DNA of 64,000 nucleotides from positions 2,279,001-2,343,000 of the forward strand of contig OZ014411.1 of the NCBI GenBank assembly GCA_963965975.1, given 5' to 3'. The notes below the pieces were generated by a model. It made no database searches, was not told where the DNA came from, and saw only the letters and a list, made by a program, of their open reading frames with translations. Of this stretch, positions 21,096 through 55,912 are shown piece after piece (the first letter of the stretch is position 1; each line of letters begins with the position of its first letter). The translations under genes were made by a program, and so were the position numbers. The DNA comes from Xestospongia bergquistia (taxonomy: Eukaryota; Porifera; Demospongiae; Haplosclerida; Petrosiidae).

Positions 21096-23719
21096 GTTAT
21101 TCTGAAGATAGATCCAGCCTCCGTTATAACAGAGTGAATGTTATTACAGGTGGTAATGTATACAACAATCCAAACATTAATGTGAATGTTAATATAACTA
21201 GATCAGGTAAGTTTGTCCATTTAATAAATGATTTTGTAGCTTGTTAATTAAAAGTCATTGCCAGGTTTCTGGGGAGATAAGTTAGTTTATTAGGACTAGT
21301 ATGCCAGGTTAATTTTCTCTATAAATGATGTCATAACTTTTTTAATATGCATGCACAAATTTAGGGGTTATTAGCCAATATCAAATTTTATATTGTTTGA
21401 TGATGATAATAAAGATATGTTGGTAGCATTACAAAGAATATAGCTTACTAACCACCATTTCCCAAGGCCGTAAATGCTTAATATTAAGTTTTCAAGGTTT
21501 CGATACCCATATATATTACCAGCGTGATGCTATGTAGTCTAAGATTATTTTATGCCAATCTGTTTGTATATTTCATATATGTCCACTTTCACAATTCTAA
21601 TCTATTTTTAAATTAAACTATGAGAGTGACCAATGAAATCAATCCATGTAAACAAACCACCAACATATATATATCAACCAAGGAATATCATTACTTTGAC
21701 TCCTAGCATCCTTAATGACTGAATGAAGCTTCTGAGTTGTGTTTTTGAGCACTTCCATATTCACCTCTCTAGTCTTAATATGTAGTAAATTCATTCCCTT
21801 ACATCAACAACAGTACCATCAAGAAATAATAATAAGATATCATAATTATAACATTGTTAAAGCCCCTCAGATTAAGAGAGTGGTATTAAAACTTCTTGTA
21901 TTTTTATACTTACTAGTACTCACAAATCATCTTACTATTTGTTCAAAGTTGTGCCAATTTTAATAATTGTTATAATTTGCACACAGTTGTTATAATTGAG
22001 TACATTTGTTTATCAGTTGACTTATAGTATAGTAGAATTTTTTATAAAAGTAGTCATATAAATGATGATATCATCAATCTTGTTAAATTTATATTTTGAT
22101 ATTAATTCTTTATGTTCAGCAGCAGAAGTTGACCAAACAGATACAGATGATTACCAAGGTGAGTCATTTTTTTAGTCTACGTTTAACTAAATTAACAAAC
22201 TACATACACAAAGGTTTAAATGAACATTGCTTGCATATTAATTCATATTCAACTGTTATGTCGTTTGATGATAATAACAATAAGTATGTTTGACATGAAC
22301 ACTTAATTAAGCAGTAAAAGCAGAAAAGTGATAAAAGCAAAAAAAGCTAACAGTAAAAGAAGAGAAATTTGTGTGTGTACATGTATTATTCACATTTCTT
22401 TGCATAACTGTTTTACATAAAACATAACATTTGTTTACTATTGTTATAACTATTTATTTGCTATGCATTTAATTTTATAAGGCAAAGTATATTCTAGAAA
22501 GAAAACAAAAGATCAATCTACAGAGCCACTTATAGACGCAAGAAGACTGATATCTGAAAAATCTGGTGATGGAATTATAAAGAAATTCATCAATTTTAGT
22601 ATGTCATACTTTAGTTATATATCATAATATTTTGACTTCTTTGTATAGTTGTTCAGCCTAAAGTTGTATGTGCTCTTTTTGTTCTGATAATAGTTGTGAT
22701 GATAATTCTACTGCTTCATTATTATTACGGTAAGTATATGACACTTGATTAACTTGCCACAAAGCATACATGTGGGTAAGGTGAGTATATTTAGTGTGTC
22801 TGTCTGTTCAATGTGGATATTCTTTAAAGATGACAATATACTAGCTCACAACATCAAACAATGTTACAAACTAAAATATACCTTTTTATCATGCCATGTC
22901 CAAATTTAGAATGCTTATAATTTTGGAAAAAAGGGAAAAATGAACTTAAACATGGTGGACATAATCAATGGTGAATAGTGTGATACCATTCTTAAAGCAT
23001 AAGTGGTAACTAGCACCTAAATATAAACCTATATGTCACAATGGTCAATGCAATGGATGAAATAATGCTTTAAACCAAAATAACCAAATTGTCCAAACAA
23101 ATTTCATTTTTATCAACCAATTCCAAATTTGTTCTGATGTAAAGATAATTAAATAACTTTATCTGAACGTTTTAGAGATTTTATACAGTGATCTACATAG
23201 GCTTATAATCCTGGAACATCAAGGAATTTTTTTCAATCTGTAAAGCTAACTTGCACTGGTGTAATCATAAAACTCAATTAAAACTAAGATTTAGGTACCT
23301 AATTAGACCTGAATTTCTTTAAACAATTATACATATGACATGCATGTATTATTAGTAGATTAATATATATGGAATGCTTTTTAGGTTAGGTATTGTTTTA
23401 TTGAACAGATAAGCAAGAAGTAACTACTCATTGTCATCAAATAAAGAGTCATAATGAAGTTTTCTTAGTGCTTAAAGACAAGATATCAAGTCCAAAGATA
23501 TTTGCAACATGTTTGCATTTGTCTAGAGTTGAAGCTGATATTGCTCACAAAGAAAATATTCTCATAAATGAAGTTTTAAATGATATTCTGAAATTATGGT
23601 ATGAACAACATGTTGAAGATCCTTGTTGGGAACACATAGTTAAAGCATTAAAATGTACAGGTGAAAATCACTTGGCCAAAGACATTCATGACCATTATTG
23701 CAAAACGTTATTTTTTTAA
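21096..23719 (+). CDS. Unit 2, module b: Asn/Val-motif, transmembrane, Death-domain terminal exons
   Basis: Exons 21096-21206, 22123-22158, 22482-22598, 22649-22729 and 23409-23719, all entered in phase 1. Joined to the Death exons at 14943-15353 they give a 339-aa protein with a Death domain at each end of a membrane segment. Motif exon reads GGNVYNNPNINVNVN then ITRSG; microexon QTDTDDYQ; transmembrane exon is almost identical to unit 1; the C-terminal Death domain contains LKLWYEQHVEDPCWEHIVKA and LAKDIHDHYC. All splice sites are canonical, unlike unit 1 where one donor is lost. No start exon precedes the module, so it is probably an alternative 3' end. A separate gene with an unseen first exon is the alternative. 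Confidence 0.65.
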
Positions 23720-24132: not shown

Positions 24133-24248
24133 TTAATTAACATTGACATTAACACTTATGCTTGGATTGTTTTCAACTCTGAGAGCCTCAACAGTCAATG
24201 CAGAAGTTTGACTTGAAACCTGCTCAGACACTGGTATGATGATGAGCC
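24133..24248 (-). pseudogene. Last exon (Asn/Val motif) of a third A/B-type gene copy
   Basis: Minus strand: PVSEQVSSQTSALTVEA then VENNPSISVNVNVN and stop, matching the last exon of gene B. The acceptor AG is present near 24249 but the frame at the exon start is shifted by a small indel. It follows the unit 2 stop by 0.4 kb, convergent to it, as gene B follows unit 3. Confidence 0.75.
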
Positions 24249-24440: not shown

Positions 24441-24586
24441 CTCATTGGGTGATTTTTTAGCAATATGCCATCCTGGAATAGCATCTCCCTCTGGAATTCT
24501 AATTACTAAAGACTCTCCTGTAAATTCAAAAGGCAAATCAGGGATTTCCTCTATCCATCCATCACTGTATTTTTTTTATCAACATC
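24441..24586 (-). pseudogene. Exon 14-like fragment of the third A/B-type gene copy
   Basis: Encodes DGWIEEIPDLPFEF, then LVIRIPEGDAIPGWHIAKKS, equivalent to 34981-35121 of gene A and 43078-43224 of gene B. Acceptor and donor (GTAATT) are preserved; one frame slip near the start (AAAAAAAA run). The exon between it and 24133-24248 is missing, so the copy is dead. Confidence 0.75.
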
Positions 24587-25637: not shown

Positions 25638-28600
25638 ATGGCTACCTCTTTAGACGAACAAAATTTGAGCTTTCATTCACAGAATCCTCCATTTTCTGAA
25701 AAGTGTACGTTAGCTCACGATGTTATCAAAGCCAAGCTTCCCAAACTTGTTGAAAAAATACCTCCTGAGGAAATTTCTGACGAGCTTTGGTCTGCGAGTA
25801 TAATATCTGAGGAAGAGTATGAGTTCTCTTTCGATAAAAGCGAACCTCGAAAAGAAAGGACGAGAAAACTTATTCGTAAGGTGATGCAGGCAATCAAAAA
25901 GAATTATGAAGTGTTTGAACGCTTTTGTTATGTTCTTGAGCAGTCTGAAAATAAAGGAATACAAGAGTGGAGTAAACGTTTAAAAGGTCAGTAACTATAA
26001 ACTGATTTAAGTATGTATAGTATGTACTATGTATCACACACACACACACATTTTGGCTTATATCTACACAAAACAAAAACGATTTATCTATGAAGTATTG
26101 TAAACTTAGTATATGTAATCATACTTAAAGTTATCATACTTACACTCTTGAAATTTAAAGTATCCTTCACTGTAACAAAATTCTTAAAAATAAAGTAGTA
26201 TTTAAGATTGCCAGCACAAGCCTCAGGATTCTTCAGTTGCCCAACCTAAAATTCTAGGATTACCTAACATCTTTTGGAATGAGACTTATATACACTGACA
26301 TCCTAGCATATTTTTAGAATGACAATGTCATTGAATCAGTCAGGTCCTATATCTACAATAACCTGTATGACATCCTAAGATATTCTAGATTGTTCATGGA
26401 CTATGATCCTATGTCCAAGCCAATTGTTAGTGCATCTCAAGATATTCAAAGTATATCCAAGGGAGGCTAGTCTGTTTTGTCCAAGGTAACCTTTATGACA
26501 TTCCAAGATATTCTAATATTCCTAGGATATTCATGGATGGTGAGTAATCTGATCCTATGTTCAAGCCAACCTTTGTGATATCCCAAGGTATTCCAAGAAT
26601 ATTCATAGACTATGAGTGGTTAGGTATGTCCAAGCCAACCTTAGCGACATCCGAAGGTATTCTAAGGATATTCATGATAGAACCCGACTACTTATTATTC
26701 ATGAATATCTTTGGAATACCTAGGGATGTTATAAAAGTTGCCTTGAACACAGAACTTGACTACTCACTATCCATGAATGTCCTTGGAATATATATATATA
26801 TATATATCTTGGGATGTCGTAAAGGATGGGTTGGACATACCAAACCCCTCATCATACTTCGATCCAAACCAATCTATATGACATTCCAAGATATTCAAAG
26901 GAGATAGTCTGGTCCTATATCCAAGGAAAGCTTTAGTACATTTCAGGATAGTCCTAGGATGTACATCCATGGAAACTAGTCTAGTCCTATGTCTAAGGCA
27001 ACCTATAGAATAGTATAAGATACTTTTTGTTATTACCATCATTTCCATGCACAGTAACAGTCTCCTTATAATGTCTTAAACTATTTTAAGATGTCTATGT
27101 GTCCCATCTACTTGTCACTTAGTGGTGTACTTTATAAAAGAAAGGCTTAGACGACAAAGAAATCCATACCAGAAGGGTATTATTAGAGAAAGGATGATAT
27201 TAATAACTGATTGTGTTGATTATGCTTAGCTTTTCACATTTTTGTAAGGAGATCTAGATTTATTAATACAATTGATTACTTATTTATTAATTTATGAACT
27301 TTGACGATGTTTTGAAAATTAGACAATTAACAGGAACTAACTATACAAAGATAGCATCGAAGTACTAGCCAGCTTTTGAAATGCTTTCAAATTCACTTAT
27401 AAACTTTATTGGACATGCCAAGCAATTAATTAATATGTCAAAGTATAAATTGCTATTATATCATTTAAGTACTTTAATACCATGTTTGATGGATATACTG
27501 TACAACTGGAAATGTTGATTCTATATAACTTGTGTTTGCTTAAGTAACTAAAATATGCTAAAAAATGACATGACAAAAAACATAATTATGATTGCATGAC
27601 AATGAAAAGTTTTAATGGTAAATTTAGAACTAACATAAATTTTTCTGATTTTTGTCACTGGCTAAGGTTTGATTTCAGACTTCAATTTATTATTGTTCTT
27701 TCACTAAGTGTACCACTATCACAATTCATGCACACATGATTTATACTTTTTGTCTTTATAGATGATCTTGAGCAACAACTAAAAGACTCTACAAGAACTG
27801 AAGTCTCCTCTGAACTTACAACAGAGAATGAAGCTCTGAAGAGATTAAAAGACGAGTTAGCAATTATAAGAAAAAGCTTATTTCAATCTGATGACAATCT
27901 TGATGCCAAGTATGATTTAGCAAAGGAATTCATCACTCGTTATATTGTTCGTTCAATGGACAGTACCTTGTTTATAGATGAAGAGCTAAAGGACAGAGCT
28001 GCTTCTGTTAAAGAGCAGTTAAGAAAACTTTGTTTTGAGGAGTTTTTAATCCCAACAAAGTTGCATCAGTGGTGTTTACATGAAATGAAAAAGTTAGGTG
28101 ATGCAAGGTATGATGATCCTATTATGGTACCTGAAGGTTCACAAATGCCTATCAGTGTCGTTACACCACTATTCAATAAAGAAACTGTTTATCATGCTTT
28201 ATTGCTTAGTAAAGTTGTTCAAACATGCAAAGCTAAGAACTATGAAACGTTTCTAGCACATGAGCATCATGATTTTGATGAAGTGTCCTTATCATTGGAG
28301 AGTGCAGACAGAAGCAATTGCATTGAAAAATATGCTATTGCTAAGAGAGGTAAAGTGTTGTATGCTGCTTTTTTTGGAGAGCAGAATATTTCAAACTGGC
28401 AAGACAAATACACCACTATCAATGATGGTTAGTTCATAGTTGCTGTTATTGTTATTTACTTAAACTATAATTAAAAGTATTTTTAGTATGCAATGCTATA
28501 TGAACAATCTACATTTCATTTCATTGATACCAAAATAAATACTTGATAATGGAAACTTCTATACCTCATGGATACCAATGAATAATCTATAATTTATAAA

Positions 28601-31600
28601 TACTGATGGAATATATAGTATTCAATTTATTGCAACAATACTCAGTGTTCATCTCATGGATACTGAGTAATATATCTGTCTTATGTATATGATGTACTGA
28701 TAGATATGTTTTATATTTACTACTGTCAGTGTACATATGTAGCTGCTGATTTGATAGTAATGAATTTTTTTAGCTTTTAAATCATGATATTAAAAGGGCA
28801 AAAACTAAAAGTAATTCCATTCAAGTTATAAGTGAAACAACAGTAAATTAATATTGACTACACATACACATCCTTTACTGCATCTATTCTTTTGTTTCAG
28901 GTATTGCACATCAGACTAACCGGATACCAATTAGATTCTTTATAGAGAATATTCGAGAGGGTTATCAGGTTATTTTCACTGGTAAGTTACTTTGGAGTCT
29001 ATATTCTTTGTAAATCTGTACACAATAATACATGTAGGATATTGAATTTAAGTTACCATTTCGATTTGACTGTCATACAATTTGTAACATAACTAGTAAA
29101 ATAAGATAGCAAGTTACATAATAAGTAGTAATAAGTTTTAAGTTTTAAGTTTTTGGTTTATAATTATGGATACCATAATATATATTTATTTTTTATGCAG
29201 GTTTTTCATTTGGTGGATTACTGGCAGTTGCGATGCATTCTTTTCTTTGGCGTCAAACTTGTTTGAGCATGGATGAACTGGAAAAAAGCATTGCCTGTGT
29301 TGCATTTGCTCCTCCTCTTGTTGATGTTGATGTAGTTACTGATACCTTAGTGAAATATCCTTTAATTAAGGAAAATACATATATATTCTACAGCAAGAAT
29401 GACTTTTTCCCCCAAATGTTCCGTTGTGTTAATAGGAACAATATAGCTACAGATATCTCTCCTTCAAATGGAAAGGTATTAAAAATGCATTAAAAATACT
29501 ATAAGTCTACTTTTAATAGTTGCGTGCTACAAATGCAGTTGGCTCTGCCATTTTGAAACATTTAGCTGAATTACAAGCTAATTTTTTTCACAACAAGGTA
29601 TTTGTGTTATTTTGTAAATTTTTATAGTATTTAATAAATGCATGGCCTATACATAAATTGTTTAATGTATAAGGAGTGATTTAGTGAATTTAAGTTTTGA
29701 TCTCTAATTCTTTTTCTCTCAAGCTTCTTGCAAGTAGTTCACTTTTAAATTTACTTACTGATTGTAGTGTTAAGTCAAAATTTATTGTTCACAGTAACCA
29801 TATATAGTTTAAACATATAATGCTTGATCTTTTGTTTCTGTTTACCTGATTATTTATTAATAATACCTTACTTAAACCTTTGGAGACTGTTAAACAGACT
29901 TTAACACTGTTAAATAGTCTGTTGTTTGAACTGAATCACAGTCCCTTTGGTTGCATGGTTTCACACTTAATATATTGAAAATTATTAACAAGATACACAG
30001 TTTTGATTACTAAATTATTGGTACTGCACATTTTAATGCTTAAACAAGCAACTTCCAAAAAATGCATGACTATAGGATGCATAAAGATCTTTTATTAGAA
30101 ATTCTACATAGTAACAGCCCTTATACACAATGACTCAGCAATTGTTATCACAAAATGCATATTGACATCCTTTACAGCAGCCATCTAACTAATAATATAT
30201 TAAGCTATCATTTTTCATTGGTCTGTTAATTAACTTCATGAATGTTAATTTATAATTTAGTAATAACATAATGTGATGTATGTATACTGTACTTTGCAGC
30301 ATTTCATCCTATATTATAATTGAATTAATGACAATGGATTTGTTTCATTAACCAATACTTTTTAAAAATGTATTTTTCTCTTGCCTTAAAATTAGCTACC
30401 TTCAGATGAAGCACAACAGATACTGCTTTCACTTAAAGTAGCTCTGAAGGATGGTTTAACTACATCTGTTACTCTCAAGTTATTTGGCAGTTGTCATTTA
30501 ATGTATCCAAATGGTAGTAGTGGGCATCATGTTTTGAGTGTTCTTTCACATCAAGCTGGAGAAGATCATATAAATACCCTTAATGATGCCTTAATTGATG
30601 AAATTCATGGTGATATATTTAAACAGGTATATATGTAATAATGGATTGGTACTGAAATAATTTTATGAAGTTGTATTTGACAAAACAGAAAATGACAGAG
30701 AAACTATCGATGTTTTTATATAATGTATATTTCTATACAATGCTGTAAAATTTTAAGAATTTTACCAAGTATATTTTCCTTTTTATAGCATTCTTTTGCT
30801 AAATATGAAAGTCTTGTTGATCAAAGTTATTTTCAAAATCCTGAATATGGCAGCAAAGTCATTTATAGAAAAGAGAAGGTCATCACTGTGTTAACAGAAG
30901 CCAAACCATCTGTCTCTGGAATTATTTTTTCTCGATTAGGTGATGAAATAGCAGTAGCTGTTGAAGGTGATAATCTTTGGTTTTGTGATCAAATTAAGTT
31001 AGGAAGTCTCAGTGGTAGCCGTGTTATTAATACTTGTGGTTCTGATGCTTCAAAACGATCTATTAACTTTAACTATGTTCCCTCCAGTGATGGTGATCTG
31101 TTAGTTGAACACAAAGCAGAAACTGTTGAAGTCTGTCTTTATAGTCATTTTTGCAATCCGATCAGAAAAAAAGATGTCAAAGCTACTAAAAAGGTATGAA
31201 CTCTTATCACAAAAATTTTAACTGTGGTACTGGTATTTATGTGAATTTAATTACGAGTTGTTATAACCTAGTTCATAAACTCCCTTACATTGGTGTACAT
31301 TAATTTTAAATTAATAGGTTGACCTTAATAGGACAATTAACATAACATGCGTGTAGCTAATGAATTTTGTTAGAATTTAATTGTTGGCAAGTATCCAAAG
31401 CACAAAACATAACTAATAATATAACTTTGGATTCATTTCTGCTTTATTATAATATTAATAATTTAGGGTGATTATCACATCTCACTGCGACAGCGACAAC
31501 TTGCCAGAAACACACCCCTTCAAATTATTATTTTAGCATTTATAAGTGCAATGTTAGAGAAGTCATCAGCTAATACAAGCAAACCTTCTCATCGTTTTAG

Positions 31601-34600
31601 CAGTATTAGTCGTTTCTTCGAAGACGTTGTTCGCATAGTCCCGGTTGAAAGTATTTGTCACGCAATTATTAATACTGAAAACAAAAATGCATGGAAGTGT
31701 GCTGAAGCTTTTGTTTGTTCTCGATTTGACCCACCTCCTTCTCTGCAATTTGTTAGTGGATTAGAAGGTGCTCTTATGAGACTTACATTAGGTGTACATC
31801 CTTTTGAAGTACAAAGGCTAAGCGAACAAGCAGTTAAAGGTGCGATGCAAAAAACTGTACCTAGAGGTTTCACAGAATCGTGGAAAGTTGAAACTGAATT
31901 GCTTTTTAACAAAGATGAAGTCTTTATTACAGCTGTACCACAGAAATTGGAAAATTGTAGACCTGAAAAAGTACCTGATAAGGCTTCTTTTGCCCGTCAT
32001 CTAAGCCATACAGTTGCATTGAAAAGGGAGCAGTCTGATTTCTTTGGCCAATCTGACAAAAGTGATTATATATTGCACCATTTACAGAGAATGAGAGACC
32101 AAGTCTATTGCAGGTATAGACAGGAAGCTCAATGCAGTAATGTGAAGGTAATTTGTAACCTTAATATTGATGAAATTTATCCTGCTAAAGTGACAGCTAC
32201 TGATGCCAAATCAAAGTCATTAAAACCACCAATTGATGTTTTGGTGTTAGCAAAAAAGAAACTTAATGAACTTCAAACAAAAGCTGAAAGTGAAATACTT
32301 TTAAGTTTCAAGGAAGGAGAAAACAGTGTGAACAAAGCCAAAGCTCTACATAATGAACGAATGGTTCGAATGATAGATGACATAATTGAAAATGAACTTA
32401 TTATTTGTGTTTCATTACTTGGCGCATTTATGCAACAGCAAATTTGTGTGCCTTTTATTAATTCTCCAAAAGAAACAGCTCATATTTTGCAGACAACTAA
32501 AGTACCACCTACTGTAGGTGTTTGGGCTTTATTTAGTCTTGACATGTTAGATCTACAAAACATGCTGGGATCAAAAAAAGGAAAAGGTCTTATAGTAGAG
32601 GTGGAAAATTACATACAAGGTATTTTAAGTAAAATTGATGAAGACAGGTATCTTAAAGATGATCCCCGTTATGCTGGTAAACTTCAGTTTCTTATGCAAG
32701 GAATGGTTTCATCTGTAAGCTGCAATACGAGTTATATTAGCTATTCACTAGAATTGCAATTGCTTGACTTATGCCGGCATTTTAAGATTAGTCCAAGCAC
32801 CAGAGTTGAAGATTTAGTTAAAGAATGGAACAAAAAGTTTAAGGGTTGCGTCCTATTTCATGTTATGCAACCATATCGACCACTTCTTGCTCGATGGCTT
32901 ATTTGGAGTCTCAACATTCACCAACTTCGTGAAGAACTTGCCTCGCACACTACTGTTGGTGTTATCGGATTGACTAATTCAGGGAAATCTTCACTTGTTT
33001 CTTCACTGTTTAAACAGAAGGTATAATTTATTTTTTCTTAAATTCAAAATAAATAATCAAAACAGTACTGTACAGATCAATAATCAGTGTTTATTGTTAA
33101 TATTTAGTATTCATATCTGTTTGTATTCCTTGCAGGTGATTACTGGAACCACTTTAATTCAAAGGACAACAATACCTTTCCTATATAACCTAGATGGGCT
33201 TGTAGATGGCCTGAGTGTGATTGACTTTCCTGGAGTAGATGACTATGATAAAAGTGTTAAAGATTTGACAAAGCTTTTGCTACAACTAGCTCAGATCATA
33301 GTACTTGTCATTGACTACAGGTAAAACTGTTTACAAATGTAATGGCTACATAGCCTAAGTAACTCTCCACATGGTATTATTTTTTAATCATTTAAAATTA
33401 TTCCTATTTGTTATTAAAGTCATTACTATGTCTGTATCTTATAACTGAATTTGCAATAGGAGATGTTCAACTGATTCAGCAAAGGCTATGTTGGACTACT
33501 TGGATAGAGAAGGTGTACCAGTTCTGTTATGTCTTACTCATGCTGATAAGTTATATGCTAATGAATGTTTAAAAGTTGTTGGAAGAGATTGTCCAGAAGA
33601 CACAGCTACAAGAATGATTGGAAAAGAGCTTGATGTCAGTTCATTCCTTATAAGCACATTCAGGAATATTGCATGCTCTTTTAATAGTTAGTTTAATGCT
33701 GTTGTTGCTAGACCATGTTAAATGCTTGTGTGTAAGTGCCGTATAACTATATTGAACTCTCCACAGATGTTCACTTAGTATGTCTTAGAGTTAACTAAGA
33801 TGTAGAATTTATTCATTGTGATTTACTTAAGAGTGTTATAGCCAATAATGTATTTTTTATTGCTTGTAATATTTGTAATGTATCAAGATATTTATAAAAT
33901 CAACTACATTTTTCTACAGAAAATAAAACAAAAGATTGGTACATCCACATCTCGCACTATGGACTTCTTTTCATTTTGTCAAGATGGAGACTCTATCCTC
34001 AATTGTGATGAAGGCAGAGAAACTTTGAAGAGAGTTGGTATTTACTCGACTTCAAAAGTTGGAGAATGGATTGAAAAGGAGCTACGTGATCATATGCAAC
34101 ATGAAAAGATTGCAGAAGCACTTCATAAATTTTTGTCTGAACCTTCAGGTAATTTTTTAATAGATATACTGTTACTTTGATGCATGTACCTGTAGATGCT
34201 CAAGAATCTATTGATCAAATGCCACTTGACTTAAGTGATGATGATGATGAAACAAAACCTTTGCCAGGTACAATATTATCACTTCATTATGCTATCTTAA
34301 TAAGTGAATGAATTTTTAAGAACATATCAGAGGAGTAACCATCTCTGCTGAAACTACAAAAGAATTCATTAGTCACAATGCTACAGCTACCTTTGAATGG
34401 GAAGGATATGGTTTTAAAATAGTAGTTCCTGCTGGAGCTCTTCCAAGTGGCAAAAGGTGTAAAATAAGAGTGAAAGCAATCACAGCTGGTCAATTCAACT
34501 TTCCTAAGAATACAGAACTTGTTAGCTCAGTGTATTGGATCTATTCATCTTGCAAGTTTCTTAAACCAGTTGATATTTGCATCGACCATTGTGCTATATT

Positions 34601-35687
34601 ACAGTCCCTAGATGACTGTAGTCAAATGAGATTTATTTTAGCTCGCTGTGACCAAGAATCACTACCATATAATTTTAGTGTCAAGCCTGGAACTTTTTCT
34701 CCCAATAACCGTGAAGGATTGATTTCCTTAAAATCCTTTTCATTTCTTGCAGCAATACGCAACTATATATTTCCAACTACTGCAGTCACTGGTGATGTAC
34801 AGGATGTAGCACAAACAAATCGTTCATATTATGTTGTTAAAGTTTTTGGCAGAAGTGCAGTGTCTAAGAAAAAGACTTGGCAGTTCGATTTTATCTTTAT
34901 GAAAGACATTGGACCTTATAAAAAGGTATTATGCAATGCATTTAACCATTTTGCATGATAGAACTGTAATATTATTACAGGCTGTAGATACAAAATATTG
35001 TGGATGGATTGAAGAAATTCCTGATTTGCCATTTGAATTTAAAGGAGAGTCTTTAGAGATACACATTCCTGAAAAAGATGCTTATCCAGGATGGCATATT
35101 GCTACAAAATCCCCTCAAGAGGTAATAGCTCATGCTACAGTTCTACAAATCCATCCATCCATATACCTGTCAGATCAATCACAGTTTGAATTTCATTTAA
35201 TTGTTATACATTTCACAGATTTCAAAGAGATATATAGATGACAGTACCCCTGACTCTTCTCCACAGTCATGTCGATTAGCATTTCGCTGGCGAGGAGAGG
35301 GTGAACCTCCACCATTGGACTGTAATGTTGAACTACATGGTACAGTTAGAAAGTGCCATTTGAGTTTATCGTTACCAATAGAAGAGACCAGTACTAGTAA
35401 GTTAGAATTTAAAATTTTTCCAAATCAATATAATGCACTTTGATGTAAAATGGATAGACATTGCACTATGTTCATATTAGTAACCATAGAAACTACTAAT
35501 TAGATTTATTGTTGTTTATATACAAACATTTTAGCAAGTTTTGTTCATATTCTTTTAAGGGTCAACATCATTGATGCCAGTGTCTGAACATGTTGATAGT
35601 CAACCATCTGTGGTAGTTGTTGAAGGTCCCAAAGTTGACAACAGTCCAAACATCAATGTGAATGTCAATGCACATTTTAACAATTAA
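25638..35687 (+). CDS. Gene A: CARD-lipase-GTPase-ZU5 protein with C-terminal Asn/Val motif (1783 aa)
   Basis: Sixteen exons: 25638-25986, 27762-28427, 28901-28981, 29201-29475, 29520-29597, 30396-30626, 30789-31193, 31467-33020, 33136-33320, 33460-33634, 33920-34148, 34196-34267, 34321-34925, 34981-35121, 35219-35396, 35560-35687. Residues 20-115: CARD-like fold (VEKIPPEEISDELW, ISEEEYEF). About 120-180: charged helical linker. About 220-520: class-3-lipase-like alpha/beta hydrolase with nucleophile elbow GFSFG (Ser368), FAPPLV, a candidate acid in KNDFFP (Asp433) and a candidate His517 (GSCHLMY). About 1190-1335: P-loop GTPase (GLTNSGKSS, DFPGVDD, THAD). About 1438-1635: ZU5 (VVPAGALPSGK, FLKPVDICIDHC). 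C-terminus: VEGPKVDNSPNINVNVN. No signal peptide or membrane helix, so cytosolic. Inferred role: signal-activated lipid hydrolase or assembly effector. Intron phases match gene B exactly. Donors after 25986 and 33634 are GTCAGT. Confidence 0.85.
26220..27010. repeat. Degenerate minisatellite in gene A intron 1
   Basis: Imperfect units around CAAGCCAACCTT, GACATTCCAAGATATTC and AGGATATTCATGGA recur in both orientations through about 800 bp. Overlapping ORFs on both strands here are repeat artefacts. Confidence 0.65.
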
Positions 35688-37430
35688 AATTTCTAGCTTG
35701 TTTGAGGTAATATTTTTTGCTATATTTTTTATTTCTTTATCATATTTAAAACTTAGCCTTATATATTTTAGAATTGTAGTAACTAGCTAATAAGTGTATA
35801 ATTATGTTGTTCCATTAGATTTATGGAGAATACATATTGTTGTGATTTAATGAATGACAATTATGTCACATAATAAAATCCTAATACTTGCCACGGTGCA
35901 TAAACTTAGAAACTACCAGAGAAACATTCTTCATGTCTATATATTGTTAGCTAATTAATGAAATGAAAGTTAAGATTAGTGACTTTGTTCATAGATGTTT
36001 GTGGCCAAACACTTACACACTTTCATGCTTCAACTAATAATGATCTTCAACATGATGTTCATACCATAATTATAGAAGGTCAATTAAAACTTCATTTATG
36101 AGAAGATTGTCTTTGTCAAGTTCAAATATGCAAAACATTTTGAACAAGTATTTTGTCTTTTCAACATCAAAAACACTTCTTGTGGCTTGAAAGCTTCTAC
36201 AGGAAATGACAAGCAAAGCAGGAACACGCCATCTGTAATATAACCCTTTGACCTATTGTCCAACTGATTTAGACAATTGTAAGGTCAAACCATGCCATAT
36301 AACAATTCTAACCAAAGTGAAAATGACTCAGAAGTATATTCTTTTCATGTTAGAAACATAAGGTATCGTCTATCAAGGAAACAGATACCTCATGTCTGTT
36401 AGGATCTAAGCTCTACATAGGGTTCTACAGAAAATAATGCACCATTGTTTAAGATATTTAGAGCCACAAGGCTCAAATGCAATCTTGTTGAAATTCTGAA
36501 TACTTCTTGATGTTAACATGAGTTATCAAAAAAACTAAATAGATACTTCGTGTTCATAAACATCTGAGCTCTATCAGCTATGACATAGATACCTTATCTT
36601 TTTTATTTTCTTTAAAAGGAATTATTCATAAATTGTCTAACCTTAATTAAGTTTAGTACTTCCACCATATACATGTCTCTTTTACTTTTTTAAAAATTCA
36701 CACCTGGTGGTACATGGTTTCCTTATTTCTTTACCTACTTCAGATGCTGTAACATTATATAGAGAGTACAGAATGCTTCATAAACTATGTGTAAAATATT
36801 ATAACTCACAATTTGACAATATCCAAGGACTCAGGAACACTTATTATAGTGCTCTATATAAAACAGATTACACTGCATATTAACATTGCAAATTGATACG
36901 TACGTAATTGTATGTTTTTAATACAAAGAATTACTGTTGACATGCACATTAATAACTATATAATGAAACAATTTAATAAAATTTTTAGAATATTTTGAGT
37001 ATAAATAGAGTCAGTATATAGGGGATGAATTAAGGTTCAAATAGTTGAAAGAGAAAATATTGTATAGCTAGGAAAAGTATAAAAACGTAGTCAAAAGATA
37101 ATCAGAAAAGTTAACTTATCATCAATCTTAACATACAATATGAAGTTGGTCCTGGAAAATTTGAAATACAAGTGTACAAATTTCATTCCAGACTATTCTA
37201 TATTAACAGCATTAAGTCAGTTGATTATATGAATTATACAAGCAATACCTAATGTAAAATAACTACTATTTATTGACTTTGGAATGAATCTGTTTGAGAA
37301 GAAGAGACAACATCCTAGGTGAATTGATAGACTTTGGTTAATTACTTCTTCCTGCTACTTTCACATCTCTAATTTATATATTGGAGAATAAAAATTTTTC
37401 AAATAAAATACAATTCAGCAGTCCCTCCAA
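35688..37430. other. Region downstream of gene A
   Basis: AATAAA at about 35873 is a plausible polyadenylation signal for gene A. The rest to 37430 shows no coding or repeat structure that I can support. Confidence 0.45.
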
Positions 37431-39400: not shown

Positions 39401-40503
39401 TTCAAGTTAGTGCTCTAAGTACATGGAAGAGTGCTCATTATTATGGCATAATGGCATCCTTGCATGCATATTGATAGAACATGGCATTAGAGATTTGCAA
39501 AATTAATGTTTGTTACTTCTCACATTGATTGACTGTTCAAGTATAGATATATTTTACATTACACATAAAAACAATGAAATTATTATGCATTAATAATTGA
39601 GCTAAGCCAAGTTCACTTACAAGTAAGTCTGAAATGATAATGCTTTCACATTAACTTTAAGAAATATACATTGACCAATTAAACAAGGTCAGTGGGGAAG
39701 GATATACCTAAGTTGGATTTATTAAAACAAGAAAAATAATATCTGTTTTAATTAGTAAGTATGATACACTGCTCTTTGTAATCTTAGTGACTACTTAACT
39801 GCAAGGATTGTGCTTTCATTCGAATAAGCCATTGAAAGTAATGAAAAGGTTGCAATAAAAATATCAAGGTAACTGGTGACTTTATACATTGTAATTAGTG
39901 AACATTCAGTATTGTAGTCAATTGTTATTGCATTTTTCTGATTATAAGGCCTTTCCTTTTAAAAGGAGTACTGACAAATAAACAAGAATTTCTACATGAG
40001 ATATTTACCTAAGTCTTTACTTTGATGCACCTGTATTGATACATTTATTATTTGTTTCCACATTTGACTGAACCCTATATCTGCACTTCAGAAATATTTA
40101 ATAGTAATAAATATAGACTCTGGGACCAAAAAAATTGTTTTAATTTTGTCTTTGTTTTTCTGCACTTTTCCATGAGTTCTGTATGTAGCCTATGTCATAA
40201 CCTAGTTGTGTTTAACTGATACATTCTATCATCTTGCTTGCACCATATGTAAACAATGTCTCTAAGCTCTAGTGATGAGACAAGTATGCTTGAGGTGTGG
40301 CTAAATAAACTAGTATGGAGGGAGGTGAGACTAGTTTGTAAATCAAAATTCAAGCTCTCCAAAATTGTTGTATGATGCTTTTAAAGTGGCCAAGTGTTTG
40401 CTTACTGACACTTAGTTGTCAAGAGTACTCCTATTAGTAACTATAATATACTGTACAAATCATTGATGATTTATCATCACAATCATCTGAACATTTTCCT
40501 TAG
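39400..40503 (+). repeat. Duplicate of unit 2 intron segment
   Basis: Copy of 16230-17375 with a decayed module a last exon (about 39950-39982). It places unit 3 downstream of a truncated unit that lost its N-terminal death-fold exon and the rest of module a. Confidence 0.6.
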
Positions 40504-42237
40504 GTTATTCTGATGATAAGTCCAGGCACCGTTATAACAGTGATGTTATTAAAGGTGGTAGGTAATGTATACAACAATCGAAACATTAATGTGAATGTTA
40601 GATCAGGTAAGTTTGTCCATTTAATCCATGATTGAGTAGTTTGTTAGTTAAAAGTCATTGCCAGACTGTGTATAGATAAGTTAGTTTATTAGGACTGGTA
40701 TGCCAGATTGGTTTTCTCTATAAATGAAATCATAGCATTTTTAATTTGCATGTAAAACTTTAGGGGTTAGCCAATATCAAATTTTATGTTGTTTGATGAT
40801 AATAAAAGATTTTTTATAGCATTCCAAAGAATATAGCTTACTAACCACCACTTCCCAAGGCCACAAATGCTTAATATTAAGTTTGCATGGTTTTGATACT
40901 CTTTTATACTTATCATCCACCAGCGTGATGCCATGTATGTCTAAAATTATTTTACACCAATCTGTTCATATATTTCATATATGTCCACTTTCACAATTCT
41001 AATCTATTTTTATATGTGACTATGATAGTGACCAATGAAAGCAATCCATGTAAACAAACCACTGACATGTATATATCAACCAAGGAATTTTATTACTTTG
41101 ACTCCTAGCATCCTGAATGAGTGATTGAAGCTTCTGAGTTGTGTTTTTGAGCATAGCTTTAATCACCTCTCTAGTCTTAATATGTAGCAAATTCATTCTC
41201 TTACAGCAACAACAGTACCATCAAGAAATAATAATAAGATATCATAATTGTGACATTGTTAAAGCCCCTCAGATTAATAGAGTGGTATTAAAACTTCTTG
41301 TATTTTTATACTTACTGGTAGTCACAAATCATCTTACTATTTGTTAAAAGTTGTGCTGATTTTACAAGTTGTTATAATGTGCACACAGATGTTATAATTG
41401 AGTACATTTGATTATCAGTTGACTTATAATATAACAGAATTATTTATGAAATAGTCATTTAAATGATGATATCACCAATCTTGTTAAATTTATAAATTAT
41501 TTGATATTAATTCTTTATGTTCAGCAGCAGAAGTTGACCAAACAAATGCAGGTGATTACTATGGTGAGTTGTTATTTTAGTCTCTGTTTAACTAAATTAA
41601 CAAACTACATACACAAATGTTTAAATGAACATTACTTGCATGTTAATTCATATTCAAATATTATGTTGTTTGATGATAATAACGATTAGTATGTTTGACA
41701 TGAACACTTAATTATGCAGTAAAATAATAATTGTAATATTTTGACTTCTTTGTATAGTTGTTCAGCCTAAAGTTGTATATGCTCTTCTGCTTGTTTTTTG
41801 TTATGGACAATTAAGACTAAGGTACCTATATAAGTTAATTAGACCCAAATTTCTTTAAACAATTGCACATATGACAGCATGTATTATTAGTGGATTAATA
41901 TATATGGAATGCTTTTTAATTTGGGTATTGTTTTATTGAACAGATAACAAAGAAGTAACATCTTGTCATCGAATAAAGAGCCATAATGAATTATTTTTAG
42001 TGCTAAAACACAAGATATCAAGTCCAAAGATATTTGCAGATGTTTACATTTATCTAGAGTCGAAGTTGATATTGCCCAAAAAGACAATATTCTCATATAT
42101 GAAGTTCTATAACTGACCTTCTGAAGTCATGGTATGAACAACTGTTGAAGATCCTTGTTGGGAACACATAGTTAAAGCATTACAATATATAGGTGAAAAT
42201 CACTTGGCCAAAGACATCTATGAACAACATTGCTGAT
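40504..42237 (+). pseudogene. Unit 3: decayed module b (Asn/Val motif, transmembrane, Death)
   Basis: Motif exon 40504-40606 carries an insertion (GGTGGTAGGTAATG) that brings a stop, an Asn-Pro to Asn-Arg change in the motif core, and lacks the last NVN. The microexon (41526-41568, QTNAGDYY) keeps its donor. The basic-linker exon is missing. The transmembrane exon (41759 on) is truncated. The Death exon (41946-42237) is recognisable from CATCAAATAAAG-like text and KISSPKIFA but has several frameshifts. No N-terminal exon is present. It lies convergent to gene B, 0.26 kb from its stop. Confidence 0.75.
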
Positions 42238-42498: not shown

Positions 42499-45400
42499 TT
42501 AATTGTTAACATGGACATTTACACTGATATTTGGATTATTTTCAACTCTTGAACCTTCAACTGTTAAAGTAGAAGCCTGACTTGAAACCTGCTCAGACAC
42601 TGGCATCAATGATGTTAATCCTTGAGAGAATAGGAACAAATACATAATAAATTAATAAATTAAATTCATAATAAATTAAATTTATACCTACATTAAAAAT
42701 GTAGGTATAAATTAATCAAAAAGCATTGTTATGTTTAATAGTTAACCTATATGCATCCAATTGCGTTAAAATCAATTTTAAACTTTGACAATAGCTCCAA
42801 CATACCAGTATTAGTTTCTTCGATAGGTAATGACAAAGTCAGCTGACATTGTCTGATTGTATCACATATTTCCACATCACAGTCTAATGGTGGGGGCTCT
42901 CCCTCTTGGCACCAGCGAAAAGCTACTCGGCATGTTTGCAGAGAAGAGTCAGGAGTACTATCATCTATGTACTTCTTAGATATCTGAATGTCAAATAAAA
43001 TTTAATAACTCAATATTATTAACACAAAAGGGTCATCCATATTACCATTTGTAACTTGGCTACAAAAATATTATTACCTTATTAGGATTTTTTTTGGCAA
43101 TATGCCATCCTGAAAAAGCATCTCTTTCTGGAAATTGTATCACTAAAGACTCTTCTTGAAATTCAAAAGGAGTAGCAGGAATCTCTTCAATCCATCCATC
43201 AGCAAAATATTTGGAATCTATAGCCTATGAATTCTTTTGGAATAAATAATAGGAATAGATACACATTACCTTTTTGTATGGTCCAACATCTTTCATAAAA
43301 ATAAAATCAAAATGCCATGTTTTCCTTTGAGATACTGCACGTCTGCCAAAAACTTTAACAACATAATAAGAACGATTTGTTTGTGCTACATCCTGTACAT
43401 CACCAGTGACTGCAGTAGTTGGAAATATATAGTTGCGTATTGCTGCAAGAAATGAAAAGGATTTTAAGGAAATCAATCCTTCACGGTTATTGGGAGAAAA
43501 AGTTCCAGGCTTGACAGTAAAATTATATGGTAGTGAATCTTGGTCACAGCGAGCTAAAATAAATCTCATTTGACTACAGTCATCTAGGGACTGTAATATA
43601 GCACAATGGTCGATGCAAACATCAACTGGTTTAAGAAACTTGCAAGATGAATAGATCCAATACACTGAGCTAACAAGCTCAGTGTGTTTAGGAAAGTTGA
43701 ACTGGCCAGTAGTGATTGCTTTCACTGTTATTTCACATTGCTTTCCTTTTGGAAGTGCTCCAGCAGGAACTACCATCTTAAAACCATATCCATCCCAATC
43801 AAAGGTATCTGTAGCATCAAGTCCAAAAAATATCTTTGTTGTTTGGGCAGAGACAGTGACACCTCGAATGTACTCTTAAAAATACATAAATAATATAATA
43901 TCTTGCACTTTATTCTGTGATAGCACTATACCTGGTAATGGTAATGGGTTTATGTCAGCTTCTTCATCCGAGTCAATTGGCATTTCATTTGAAAAATTAA
44001 TATCATCTGTCAATTAATAAATAATCTAAGTTCATGCATCTAATAGCTTACATAATAAGTTACCTAAAGTATTACACAGAAACTGATGGAGTGCATCAGC
44101 AATTTCTTTTTGCTGCATATGATCCCGCAATTCCTTTTCAATCCATTCTCCAACCTTGAAACTTGAGTGTATACCAACACTCTTTAGAGTTTCTCTGCCT
44201 TCATCACAATTGAGGATAGAATCACCATCTTGACAGAAGGAAAAGAAGTCCATTGTTCGAGACATAGATGTTCCAATCTTTTGTTTGAATCTCTGTGTAA
44301 AAGTTAAATAAAAATTATAATCTCTATAAACAGACTTTAAATTATATACTCATTTAAATTTAGAAGACTAAAATACCTCTAGTTCTCTTCCAATTATTCT
44401 TGAAGCTGTATCATTGGAACAGTCTCTGCCAATTTCTTTTAAGCATTCATTAGCATAGAGTTTATCTGCATGGGTAAGACACAGATAAACTGGTACATTC
44501 TCTCGATCCAAGTGCTCTAGTATTTGTTTTGCTGCCACTGTTGAGCACCTCCTAGTAAAAAAAATTAGTAACCCTATAAGAACATTTAATAAAGATATAC
44601 CATACCTGTAATCTATCACAAGAACCACAATTTGGGCAAGTTGGAGTAATAAACTTGTTAGGCTTTCCACACTTTCATCATCATCATCAACTCCAGGAAA
44701 GTCAATCACACTGAGACCTTCTATAAAACCCTCAAGATTGTATAAAAAAGGTACTGTTGTCCTTTGAATTGAAGTGGTACCACTTATTACCTACAATTAA
44801 TCAATAAAATAATGTCATTAATACTTTTTTCCTTAGTCTTTAATATTATTACTTAGGAAATAAAATAATTTTTATGGTAATAATGAAAATTAATACTTTT
44901 TGTTTGAAGAGTGATGAAACAAGTGATGATTTTCCTGAATTGCTTAAACCCACAATACCCACAGTCGTATGAGAGGCGAGTTCTTCCCTAAGTTGGTGTA
45001 TATTTAGACTCCAAATTAGCCAACGAGCAAGAAGAGGTCGAAATGGTTGCATAACATGAAATAAGACACTGTCCTTGAACTTGTTGTCCCATTCTGTGAC
45101 TAACTTATTAACTCGTGTCTTTGGAGTAATTTTAAAACGGTCACATAAGTCATGCAGTTGCCTTTCAAGGGAATAGCTAATGTAACTAGTATTGCAGCTT
45201 ACTGTGGTTGATTCCATTCCTTGCATTAAAAACTGAAGTTTACCAGCATAGCGACTGTCATTTTTAAAATATAAATCATCGTCTCTTTTGCTTAAAATTC
45301 CTTGTATGTAGTTTTGTACCTCGATTATAAGAGCTATTCCTTTTTCAGATCTTAGCATCTCCTGTAGGTTTAACATGTCGAGGCTAAACAATGCCCATAC

Positions 45401-48400
45401 ACCAACAGAGGATGGTGTTTGAGTTGTTTGTAAAATATGAGCAGTTTCTTGTGGAGAATTTATAAGAGGGACCTGAATCTGTTGCTCCATAAATGCTGCA
45501 AGTAGTGACGTACAAATTAAAAGTTCCTTACCAAGAATATCGTCCATCAACTGAATCATTTCTTCATTATGTAGCTTTTTGATTTTGTTTATGCTATCTT
45601 CTCCATCTTCAAGACTAGATAATATCTCTTCAGCAGCTTTTGTCTGTAGATGACTTAGCTTTTTTTTAGCGGAAGCTAAAACAGCAATAGGAGGTTTTAA
45701 TGTGTTACACTTTGTATCACTACTAGGTATATTAGCAGGATAAAACTCTTCAATATTCAGGTCACTTATAACTTTCAATGTACCAGATCTTGCTGATTGT
45801 CTACATTTTTGATCAACAATGTCTCTCATCTTTACTAAGCACTGAAGTGTAGAGCTTTTGTCAAATTTAGAAAAGCAATCTTGATCAGATCTAGACTGAT
45901 GAGAGGTTTGACCCTTAACAACATCAGCAAACGCACGTTGAAAATGATGAGTAGCATTTTTTTGAAATTCTGCTGGATTTGTAAAACCTCCAGCTATAAC
46001 ATCTAATACCTGTTGAGCTAACATTTCCTCTAATTCATAAGGACGTATACCAAGAGTAAGTCGCATGTGAGCAGCTTGTAAGCCAGTAAGAAACATTAAA
46101 GAGGGAGGTGGATCAAACTGAAATTGAGATACCACTTCAGCACATTTCCATGCATTTTCTTGACCATCAATATTGACCACAACATTGAAAATGCTTTCAA
46201 TGGGAACAATTCGAACAACATCTTCCAAAAACCGACAAATACTTCTAAATCTATGTGAACGTCTTCCTGAAGATTCATACTTAGCAGTTGGTCGTTCTAA
46301 GAGTGCACTTAAAAATGATAATGTTATGACATCACGAGGTGTGTTTCTAGCAAGTTGTCGTTGACGTAAAGATATATGGTAGTCTGCCTAATACAAACAG
46401 TAGAAACAAAAGAAGTGTGAACATGTTGAAGTTTTCATGCATACATTGTGGAAGAGTGTATGGCAATAAAATGTCAATCATGAAAGCAATAATTAAGGAA
46501 AACTAACTCAAAATAGGACATATGCAACTTTTACATTATATGTAAAGTTTCTAAGTTTTACTTTGTAGTGAAAGCAATGCAGATTGACAATGTAGACAAA
46601 CTGTATTGTTACATAAAAATTTACTGCGTAAGATAAACAAACACATATACCTTTTTAGTGGCTGCCACATCTTTTTTTCTTATAGGACTAGAAAAATGAC
46701 TATAGAGACAAACTTCAACTGTCTTTGCATTGTGCTCAACCAGGAGGTCTTGATCATTGAGAGGAACATAATTAAAATTAATTGATCGTTTCGATGCATC
46801 AGATCCACGCGTATCAATAACATGACGACTCCCAACTTTAATTTGATCACAGAACCAAAGGTTATTACCTTCCACAACTACTGCTATTTCATCACCTAAA
46901 CGTGAAAACACAACTCCAGAGACAGAAGGTTTAACCTCTGTTAATATAGATAAACAATTTTTTTTAGTACATATGAATTTGGCTCCATATTCGGGATCAT
47001 GTAAGTAACTTTGGTTTATGACAGTTTCATACTTGACAAAGGAATGCTAAATGGTAAAATGATTGTATCATTAAAATAAACATTATCAAACATTGGCAAA
47101 ATCTTTCTTCATATTGTAAAATTACACTTTCAAAGTCACTTGTCTATTTGGACCCAAAAATCAAAGTCATTTGCAATAACATACTATCTATCACTTTCAT
47201 AGAACAAAAAAATGATTGATGGCAATAACATTGTCACTAGCTTCTGCTACCAGATGTTAGCTGCCAATCAATCTAACAGGCATCACCCAATTTATTTTAA
47301 TATACTGACAGTGTGTGGGCTGAGTCCATAACCCTTTAATATTACTGAAATGTATGCCAATAAGTTATGTATACTTAGGGTTTTCACTTCTAATTATTTT
47401 AGAAGACATGCATCACTTGACAATGACATTATTCCATAAAAGTAGCTATGAAAAGTCATATTTATTATATACCTGCTTAAAAATATCTCCACGAATTTCA
47501 TCAATTAAAGCAGTATCAATGGTGTTCATCTGATCTGCTCCAGCTTGGTCAGGAAGTATACTCAGAACGTAACGACCATCTCTGCTGCCATCTTTGTACA
47601 TCAAATGACATGTTCCATAAAGTTTTAGAGTGGATTGAACAGAAGGCAAAGTATCTTTCAATGATTTCTTCAGCATGTGTATGTGTTTTTGAGTTACCTC
47701 AGAAGAAGACTAAAAGATATGCACTTATGTCACTATATTATGACTATTAATAGTAAACATTTTGCTTGAACAAGGCTATATAAGATGTAAGATTAATAGT
47801 GAAAGACGGTTAATTAGATGTTTACATATTCTTTCTTCTTAGAATAAACTTCATTTGCACATGGCTAAAACCACATTGCATGTCAGGTAATACCGGGTAA
47901 AAGGTTACACTGTTCTTACATATAAACAAATTATTAATTACATGCACATGAGTTCATATTATTTCACTTGTAATTTAAACTATACCTTATTCTGGACGAA
48001 GTTTGCTTGCAATTCTGCTAAGTGTTTCATAATCACAGAGCCAATGGAACCAGCATATAGCTAAAGCATATTTGATTAATCATAAATTATTTTCAAAGCT
48101 GATAATAATCACCTTTCCATTTGTAGAAGTTGCCTCCAATGATTTCTCAGTTTCAGTTTCAATGCAACGAAATAGTCGTGGAAAAAGGTCATTCTTGATA
48201 TAGAAAAGGTATGTATTTTTTTTAAATGAGATATTAGAGTGTAACTTTTTTTCCATAGCTTCAGCAACAATGTCTACATGAACAAGTGGAGGTGCAAATG
48301 CAAAGCAAGCTACATTCTTTTTTAATTCATCAATGCTTAAACATGTTTGACACCAGAGAGAAGAATATACAGCTATAGCCAGCAAACCACCAAATGAAAA

Positions 48401-50312
48401 TCCTGTATGCAACAGAGTAGACATAAATATAAGCATGACATTTGTTGACATGGAGGTAAGTGATGTGCACATGTAGACATGACTACATACCAGTAAATAT
48501 TATTTGATATCCCTCTCGTATTTTTTCTACAAAAAACCTAATCGGTATTCTATTAGATTGATGCATAATACCTAAATAATAAAATGTGTTAAAAATTATA
48601 ATTAAGAAAGTAAGAAACATGAGGTATCCATCTAATGATAGAACTCAAGCATTTATAAACACAAGATATCTATTTCATTAATGGTTAGATACCTCTTGTT
48701 TGTCATAAACAATAGAGATATTTATTAGACTTTTGATAAGTCATAATACTTGGGTTGAACTTGTGGTATGACTAGGTTTGGTTGTGGCTAAAAGGTATAT
48801 AAATTGGTTAAACAATAGATTGGAGGTTTACATAGGACTAGAATTCACGTTGTATCCTTGTGCTATTGTAAATATATAGTTTAAGTATATATTCATGTAC
48901 AGCGTTAATTTACTGTTTATTCTATCAAACTTGGGTAGTAACACCTTTTAATAGACCAACTATATCAGTAGAACAAAATAAAAATCGTTAAGATTGTTCT
49001 CTTTATTTTTAAGACTGGAAATTAGCAAAAGCTATGAATTGCTTAATCACACTTTTAAGTTACAATGCCTGGCATGCTACAGGTATCAATTGGAAATACC
49101 CCCTTTCAAAACCTACATATGGCTACTTTTTAGGTTTAAACTTTATCTTTTAAATAATTATATGTATGATAGTTAAACAAATTACAATCATTGATAAAGA
49201 ACTACTCAAGGAATATATTTTTAAGTCATAAAACGCCAGCAATTGTTACATTTTAACATTTCTTTACCTTCATTGATAGTATTATATTTGTCTTGCCAGT
49301 CTGAAATGTTACGTTCCCCAAGAAATGCAGTATACAATACCTTTCCTCTCTTAGCAATAGCATATCTTTCGATGCAATGACTTCTCTCTGGACTTTCAAG
49401 TGACACAGACACTTCATCATATTCATGATGCTCATGTTCAAGAAAAGATTCAAAATTTTTAGAAGAGGATGTTTGAACAAGTTTTGTAAGCAACAAAGCA
49501 TGGTAAACTGTTTCCTTACAGAAAAGGGGTATACTTGAATCCAGGGAAATAGGTGGACTCTCTGTAAGTGCTGTCCCAGAAATGACTGTTTCCTCTCTAA
49601 TCTTCTTCACTTCATCAAAACACCATTGATGCAACTTTGACGGAATTAGAAAGTCTTCAAAGCAAAGTTTTCTTAACTCAATTTTAACAGAATCTGTTGT
49701 TTCTTTTGACATCCGGATATAATGTGCTACAAATTCTCTTGCTAGGTCATACTTTGCCTCAATATTAACATCAGATTGAAACAAACTTTTTCTTATCATT
49801 AGCAGCTCATCCTTTAATCTCTTCAAGGCTTCATCTTCTGTCCTGGTCTCAATACTCATCTGTTCTGAAGCCTTAGAGTCTTTTAGCAACCTTTCCTCAA
49901 AGTCTCCTAAGAGATGTAAAGGTAAATATATCTACAATTAGGTACTCTTATTACCTCGTAAACGTTTACCCCATTCTTGAATGTTTTTGTGCTCTGATTC
50001 CTCTAAAGCTTGACAAAAAAGCTCAAACACTTTGAAATTCTCTTGAACTGCCTGCAAGACTTTGGAAATCAGTTTTCTGGTCCTTTTTTTACGTGGTTCT
50101 CTTTCATCAACAGAAACTTCGTGTTCATCTATCGAAATCAGATTAGCTGATAAAAGATGATCACAGATTTCTTCAGGAGGAATTTTCTCAACTAGCTTAG
50201 AAAACTTCCCTTTTAAAACATCAAAAGCCAATGCACAGTTATAGGAAAGTTGATCTTGGGAATCCTGCAACATAACAGTTTCCGAATCATCAGGTAGAGA
50301 GCGAATAGCCAT
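42499..50312 (-). CDS. Gene B: CARD-lipase-GTPase-ZU5 protein with C-terminal Asn/Val motif (1760 aa)
   Basis: Sixteen exons (high to low): 50312-49955, 49906-49268, 48571-48491, 48402-48113, 48060-47986, 47709-47473, 47046-46651, 46387-44897, 44790-44606, 44551-44377, 44292-44064, 44006-43932, 43874-43270, 43224-43078, 42983-42806, 42620-42499. Same domains and phases as gene A: CARD-like (VEKIPPEEICDHLL), lipase elbow GFSFG, FAPPLV, KNDLFPRLF, GTCHLMY, GTPase P-loop GLSNSGKSS, DFPGVDD, THAD, ZU5 (VVPAGALPKGK), and the end VENNPNISVNVHVNN. All catalytic-looking residues of A are conserved in B, which argues for selection on the hydrolase and GTPase. I chose the start at 50312 because MAIRSLPDD aligns to gene A's MATSLDEQ; an in-frame ATG at 50363 would add 17 mainly hydrophobic residues. 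Reads toward gene A (tail to tail, 6.8 kb apart). Confidence 0.85.

Positions 50313-55876: not shown

Positions 55877-55912
<36 letters not shown>

Follow-up and report, generated by a model that had tools for sequence, protein, structure and literature searches.

A short asparagine- and valine-rich exon shared by a large CARD-lipase-GTPase-ZU5 gene and a predicted small membrane gene in Xestospongia bergquistia: a candidate homotypic beta assembly motif

The locus was analysed in a window of 64,000 bases (bases 2279001-2343000 of contig C1) of the Xestospongia bergquistia genome, which comprises 146 Mb in 21 contigs. Eight copies of one motif, one of them decayed, were found in the window, spread over 36 kb. 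The motif has the consensus V-x-N-[N/S]-P-[N/S]-I-[N/S]-V-N-V and lies in an exon of about 33 residues. The copies occupied the following sites.

35560..35687, + strand: last exon of gene A, motif VDNSPNINVNVNAHFNN, end VEGPKVDNSPNINVNVNAHFNN-stop, AG at 35558-35559
42502..42621, - strand: last exon of gene B, motif VENNPNISVNVHVNN, end VEGSRVENNPNISVNVHVNN-stop, stop codon after 42502
24136..24240, - strand: motif exon of the gene C remnant, VENNPSISVNVNVN, from the window self-comparison
6646..6747, + strand: motif exon S1 of small gene 1, GGNVYNNPNINVNVNVN, AG/GT borders, phase 1-1
9902..10003, + strand: motif exon S2 of small gene 1, GGNVYNSPNINVNVNVN, AG/GT borders, phase 1-1
17376..17486, + strand: motif exon S3 of small gene unit 2, AG/GT borders, phase 1-1
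21096..21206, + strand: motif exon S4 of small gene unit 2, AG/GT borders, phase 1-1
40501..40610, + strand: decayed motif exon S5, with a 4-base insertion and lost codons

The preliminary description had placed the motif at the ends of genes A and B, in small-gene exons at 6646, 9902, 17376 and 21096, and in a decayed copy near 40504. Both gene ends carried it at those sites, the four exon starts were exact with AG/GT borders and phase 1 at both ends, and the insertion and lost codons bore out the decay of the last copy. The copy in the gene C remnant (VENNPSISVNVNVN, 24240-24136, - strand) was additional to that list. The earlier claim that two different gene types share the motif held, but not with A and B as those types: because genes A and B are paralogues, the two types are the large gene and the small gene.

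The large gene, represented by A, B and the remnant C, showed the order CARD, lipase_3-like, dynamin-like GTPase, ZU5, UPA-like strands and motif. Genes A (+) and B (-) aligned exon by exon in tblastx.

25638..25991, + strand: gene A CARD exon, Pfam CARD E 1e-5, over the cut-off
28900..29430, + strand: gene A lipase_3-like region, with VIFTG, the GFSFGG elbow and NDFFP
31467..33637, + strand: gene A large helical and dynamin-like GTPase exons, with SGKSS, DFPG and THAD
34320..34925, + strand: gene A ZU5 exon, Pfam ZU5 E 3.6e-5, over the cut-off
35002..35398, + strand: gene A UPA-like exons, assigned from their position and resemblance to family members
43228..43875, - strand: gene B ZU5 exon, 87% identical to that of A
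44371..50288, - strand: gene B CARD, lipase_3-like and GTPase exons, from the A/B tblastx
24441..24560, - strand: UPA-like exon of the gene C remnant, 82.5% identical to the gene A exon

The lipase_3-like region of gene A matched class 3 lipase (PF01764) at E 0.0034 and 17.7 bits, under the cut-off of 22, and the lipase elbow GFSFGG (G-x-S-x-G) was intact in both A and B. The GTPase signatures SGKSS, DFPG and THAD were also intact in both genes. With its two exons joined, the GTPase of gene A matched Dynamin_N over the cut-off (E 5.6e-8), and the large exon matched MMR_HSR1 below it (E 0.0028). Pfam gave no UPA match in gene A, and neither NACHT nor NB-ARC was found among the pieces scanned. 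In this genome the motif is linked with sequences of the CARD, lipase_3-like, GTPase and ZU5 kinds. Three sequences related to the large exon (P0005, P0007 and P0009, with 91, 61 and 57% identity, respectively) probably represent the same locus in another assembly. Outside the window, four paralogues of the GTPase exon were found and two of them read. In one (L070, contig C15, reverse strand, from about 1009) no ZU5 was seen, and the later exon at its end was weakly like the Death domain at 14943-15257 of the window (30%, E 9.4e-5), with no Pfam Death match. The other (L069) showed no ZU5 within the 7 kb examined.

Small gene 1 was predicted to encode 337 residues in the order MDE, CARD-like, motif, TM1, TM2, motif and DDx with the stop codon. 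All placed exons of the small genes were in phase 1 with GT-AG borders, the gene model as a whole being a prediction. Besides the motif exons, the following were placed.

5580..5589, + strand: exon 1 (MDE) of small gene 1, ATGGATGAAG followed by GTGAGT, phase 1 donor, predicted model
5858..6193, + strand: CARD-like exon of small gene 1, phase 1-1, akin to the gene A CARD
8447..8536, + strand: TM1 exon of small gene 1, phase 1-1, AG/GT borders, hydropathy up to 3.1
8591..8668, + strand: TM2 exon of small gene 1, phase 1-1, AG/GT borders
12900..13195, + strand: DDx1, terminal helical Death-like exon with stop, phase 1 acceptor, putative link to small gene 1
19797..19886, + strand: TM1 exon of unit 2, exon model
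19937..20014, + strand: TM2 exon of unit 2, exon model
23409..23719, + strand: DDx2 terminal exon of unit 2, exon model

Unit 2 repeats the series motif-TM-TM-motif-DDx, and each small gene seems to hold two motif exons, one before and one after its two TM exons. If the two hydrophobic stretches form a hairpin, the two motif copies face a single side of the membrane. A search for the TM1 exon in the genome gave two places, both of them at this locus. A first exon of unit 2 was looked for and not found. The Death domain at 14943-15257 was considered for this position and rejected, because the frame starts and stops by itself and no phase 1 donor was seen. This place on the + strand is a single-exon frame of 105 residues (Pfam Death E 4.3e-7), that is, a Death-only protein between the small-gene units.

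The CARD-like exon of small gene 1 was 27.7% identical to the gene A CARD in the window search (E 1.3e-5). It had no Pfam CARD match of its own, and 3 of 12 aligned sequences of its kind matched at E <= 0.1; it is called CARD-like only because of its relation to the gene A CARD. Two relatives of this exon at 74% identity (P0002 and P0003) lie on short ENA/lgn contigs. DDx was helical in a single-sequence AF2 model (pLDDT 69.5). A Pfam search at E 10 gave no match to it, and the best Foldseek hit was the FADD death domain at a non-significant E of 2.4; since neither a profile nor a fold match was obtained, DDx is called Death-like only. On contig C11, between 1.43 and 2.14 Mb, a further 14 places resemble DDx, with 67-74% identity to DDx1, and three of these are broken. 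In the two that were read, DDx lies downstream of Kelch exons (Pfam Kelch in one) as an open frame that has an ATG of its own, and motif and TM were absent within the 6-7 kb examined. Because of these C11 relatives, we treat DDx as a putative last exon of the small gene.

The window self-comparison showed small and large genes converging in duplicated blocks. Remnant D is the partner of small gene 1 and remnant C that of unit 2; gene A is paired with a DDx remnant and gene B with a decayed unit. The last two pairings include the following features.

35985..36114, - strand: DDx remnant converging on gene A, from the self-comparison
41940..42233, + strand: broken DDx3 converging on gene B, with in-frame stops

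In this layout, a convergent cassette of small and large gene is duplicated about four times. As the blocks carry both genes in convergent orientation, small and large seem to duplicate together. Beside the gene C remnant, a frame at 24692-25126 (- strand) had a Myb/SANT-like DNA-binding match just under the cut-off (1.2e-5) and is possibly of transposon origin. Tandem arrays lie at 55748-56284 and 58859-59048, with units of 58 and 20 bases, respectively.

The back-translated NPNINVNV core gave 8 matches in the window at up to 3 mismatches, against 0.19 expected, and none of 100 shuffles reached 8. In the 146-Mb genome the strict motif pattern matched three times, always at the motif locus. 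A fuzzy 27-base pattern (<=3 mismatches) found 15 places genome-wide, comprising 7 exact copies and the decayed copy at the locus and 7 places elsewhere with 2-3 mismatches; the reversed control of the pattern gave 4 genome places, compared with these 7. The best outside match (contig C7, 2 mismatches), the only one of the seven that was read, was rejected as a fibronectin type III domain. Protein searches of the genome with A, S1 and B returned only copies of this locus, each search missing some; far-diverged copies may exist elsewhere, because the first step of the protein search is strict. As far as these searches reach, the motif is restricted to this locus within the genome.

Beyond the genome, a search of 5.8 billion proteins, 0.55-1.75 times as long as the motif region, yielded no candidate with three words in common, no profile or sequence search matched the motif to Pfam families or PDB sequences, and a 10-residue back-translation had no matching stretch in the prokaryote genome collection. 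A regular expression for alternating strands, applied to both strands of 58 loci outside the window, detected no comparable N-rich strand motif; its 13 other matches in these loci were, by eye, Death-like helices or non-coding-looking sequence. Low complexity was considered as an explanation and set aside, the outside matches in three viral contigs being N-P repeats. The motif might have been widespread low-complexity sequence with no tie to death-fold or effector genes, an outcome the preliminary description had named as damaging, and in this genome it is not.

An alignment of the seven scorable copies spans some 33 residues, in which E, V, N, P, I, V, N and V are invariant, so the whole exon is homologous between the gene types. 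S1 was 45-47% identical to the motifs of A, B and C. Over the 12-codon core, the six pairs among A, B, C and S1 gave a pooled pS of 0.52 and pN of 0.11 (pN/pS 0.22). By this codon measure, the motif core is under amino-acid constraint. For whole motif exons, dN was lower than dS in the A, B and C pairs, and S1-S2 and S3-S4 showed no dS excess. Within S1-S4, a 16-codon stretch had 3 variable columns out of 48, compared with 175 of 573 in the flanking intron (p 1e-4). All three changed the amino acid and none was synonymous; recent duplication or gene conversion therefore adds to the S1-S4 identity.

The ZU5 family to which the large gene belongs is very large, with 150 matches scored out of 305 candidates in the genome. 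For the first 100 ZU5 matches (A and B included), set against 108 of the 129 CARD matches, 25 had a CARD match 0.85-3.1 kb downstream on the same strand, while none had one antisense downstream and 2 had one upstream. With a profile of 12 CARD-like sequences, a CARD-like exon was found about 1.5 kb or less downstream in 17 of 28 other ZU5 loci; seven of these 17 had lent sequences to the profile, and L028 had the same score as one of the seven. In the other 11 loci the stretch examined showed no CARD-like exon, and A and B, which carry the motif, showed none there either. From this pattern the motif occupies the place of the CARD-like module in the large-gene family. The motif exon is in phase 1, as is the CARD-like exon.

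The order ZU5, UPA-like strands and then a C-terminal module resembles the FIIND proteins NLRP1 and CARD8. Unlike these, A and B end in the motif instead of a CARD, and their N-terminal part is CARD-lipase-GTPase. Of the FIIND series ZU5-UPA-CARD, ZU5 was present, UPA was recognised by likeness only, and CARD was replaced by the motif; a PDB sequence search returned no FIIND. One account puts FIIND autoproteolysis between ZU5 and UPA (PMC11760013). In A and B, S-F-S occurs near the ZU5 end, and of 30 aligned loci, counting A and B, 29 had F-[S/C] there. The AF2 model of the ZU5 region of the large gene was poor (pLDDT 39).

Composition was scored on the PAPA scale. Over 22 residues, S1 and S2 reached 0.29-0.30, compared with 0.17 for RIPK3 and 0.21 for RIPK1. 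The best windows of the last exons were 0.04 for A (off the core) and 0.11 for B, which are ordinary values, reached by 15% and 6% of background windows, respectively. The support of composition for a prion-type motif is weak and mixed.

From its sequence features, we interpret the exon of about 33 residues as a homotypic beta assembly motif that would serve as an adapter between the two convergent partner genes, and we give this reading, for assembly of any geometry, a probability of about 0.53. Cross-beta (amyloid-type) stacking is the likeliest geometry, although on its own it stays somewhat short of even odds. On the best reading, the motif would stand in for a terminal death-fold domain and couple the lipase/GTPase protein to the membrane adaptor. 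The module itself is genuine, constrained and private to the locus; an amyloid mechanism is plausible.

In the core, polar residues alternate with beta-branched ones, as in an edge strand, and the A and B copies come after UPA-like strands. The exon could be a non-amyloid docking tag, whose strand joins the sheet of a partner (the UPA-like one, for example) in a 1:1 or small complex, both gene products binding the same partner. We consider this unlikely, since two copies per predicted small protein and the sharing of the motif between partners fit self-assembly better, and the same place carries a CARD-like exon in 17 of the 28 other ZU5 loci. Shared ancestry alone, in which local duplication or conversion carried the exon between neighbouring genes and it serves as a spacer or linker with no role in assembly, is also rather improbable. 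Segmental duplications abound at the locus, where sharing between neighbours can reflect exon duplication without any interaction, and the 16-codon stretch of S1-S4 lacks synonymous change. Against such ancestry alone, A, B, C and S1 have diverged synonymously and kept their amino acids for the most part.

RHIMs occur in partners of death-fold pathways. The motif would be a highly diverged RHIM if NVYNNPNINVNVN were the counterpart of RIPK3 NIYNCSGVQVGDNN, with N replacing Q and G of the tetrad. In this register lies the best ungapped alignment of S1, S2 and S4 to RIPK3, with shuffle p values of 0.02-0.07 (0.03-0.07 with alternation-keeping shuffles). Against RIPK1 the same copies gave 0.16-0.46, and A, B and C gave 0.28-0.71 against RIPK1 or RIPK3. 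In these alignments, the likeness to human RHIMs is marginal for the S copies with RIPK3 and absent for the rest. The RHIM profile (PF12721) matched none of the seven copies, nor the S1 core alone, although it recovered human RIPK3 at 1.8e-11; over the genome it gave 6 matches at E <= 10, none over the cut-off and none in the window. The core tetrad of RHIMs is (V/I)-Q-(V/I/L/C)-G, in a motif of about 20 residues as one source describes it (PMC9444067). As the preliminary description had recognised, this core is absent, the copies reading I-N-V-N or I-S-V-N. Unlike the RHIMs of RIPK1, RIPK3, ZBP1 and TRIF, then, the motif has neither the core tetrad nor a match to the Pfam model. RHIM membership is ruled out by the profile, with weak shuffle tests and the tetrad absent, and diverged descent from a RHIM is very improbable. 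The motif may nevertheless work like a RHIM. In one survey, RIPK1 homologues with a RHIM were not found in cnidarians and several other groups (PMC12119088).

The amyloid signalling class (HRAM, PP, sigma, BASS and RHIM) is characterised in the sources consulted by a short motif common to partners from collocated genes (PMC12261475, PMC7889193), and the locus presents this arrangement. The motif is C-terminal in A and B, the predicted small gene 1 has two copies of it inside the protein, and an NLR-type NTPase was not found in the pieces scanned. The closest parallel is the fungal PP-motif cluster of HELLP, SBP lipase and PNT1, with motif identities within the cluster of 32-48% in one report (PMC7885112). 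As described there for Chaetomium and Podospora, adjacent genes of unlike architecture have one short motif in common, and their products include a putative lipase and a partner that acts on membranes. The sponge locus differs in having a GTPase and ZU5, with no NACHT or NB-ARC in the pieces scanned, and a predicted TM hairpin that is flanked by an internal motif copy on either side. The likeness is one of arrangement. Bacterial BASS motifs with BELL effectors also form two-gene clusters with a common short motif, in one description (PMC7889193); domains and organisms differ, and here too gene arrangement, not motif sequence, is compared. In the open-access literature searched, no amyloid-type signalling motif was found in a sponge or other early animal.

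On the homotypic assembly reading, the locus would work in the manner of the fungal HELLP/SBP-lipase/PNT1 cluster. The large protein, with its CARD, class-3-lipase-like region, dynamin-like GTPase, ZU5 and UPA-like strands, would act as sensor plus effector. Its GTPase-driven oligomerisation would bunch the C-terminal motif, or alternatively a FIIND-like release of the C-terminal piece would free it. The motif of the large protein would then template the two copies of the small protein, which flank the membrane hairpin on the same membrane side. Such a stack would bring the lipase to the membrane and cluster the CARD-like and Death-like ends, the output being membrane damage or a death/defence signal.

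A bolder version, which we hold to be doubtful, is that the locus represents an animal amyloid-signalling family outside RHIM, in which a cross-beta motif replaced the CARD of a FIIND-like protein and the released fragment seeds the hairpin adaptor and recruits the lipase. If true, such a family would join inflammasome-type release to fungal-type amyloid templating. Because members of one gene family have a CARD-like domain or a short beta motif at this position, the substitution is directly testable. If the motif assembles, amyloid-type templating would recur in animal death-fold immunity beyond RHIM, with a lipase as output.
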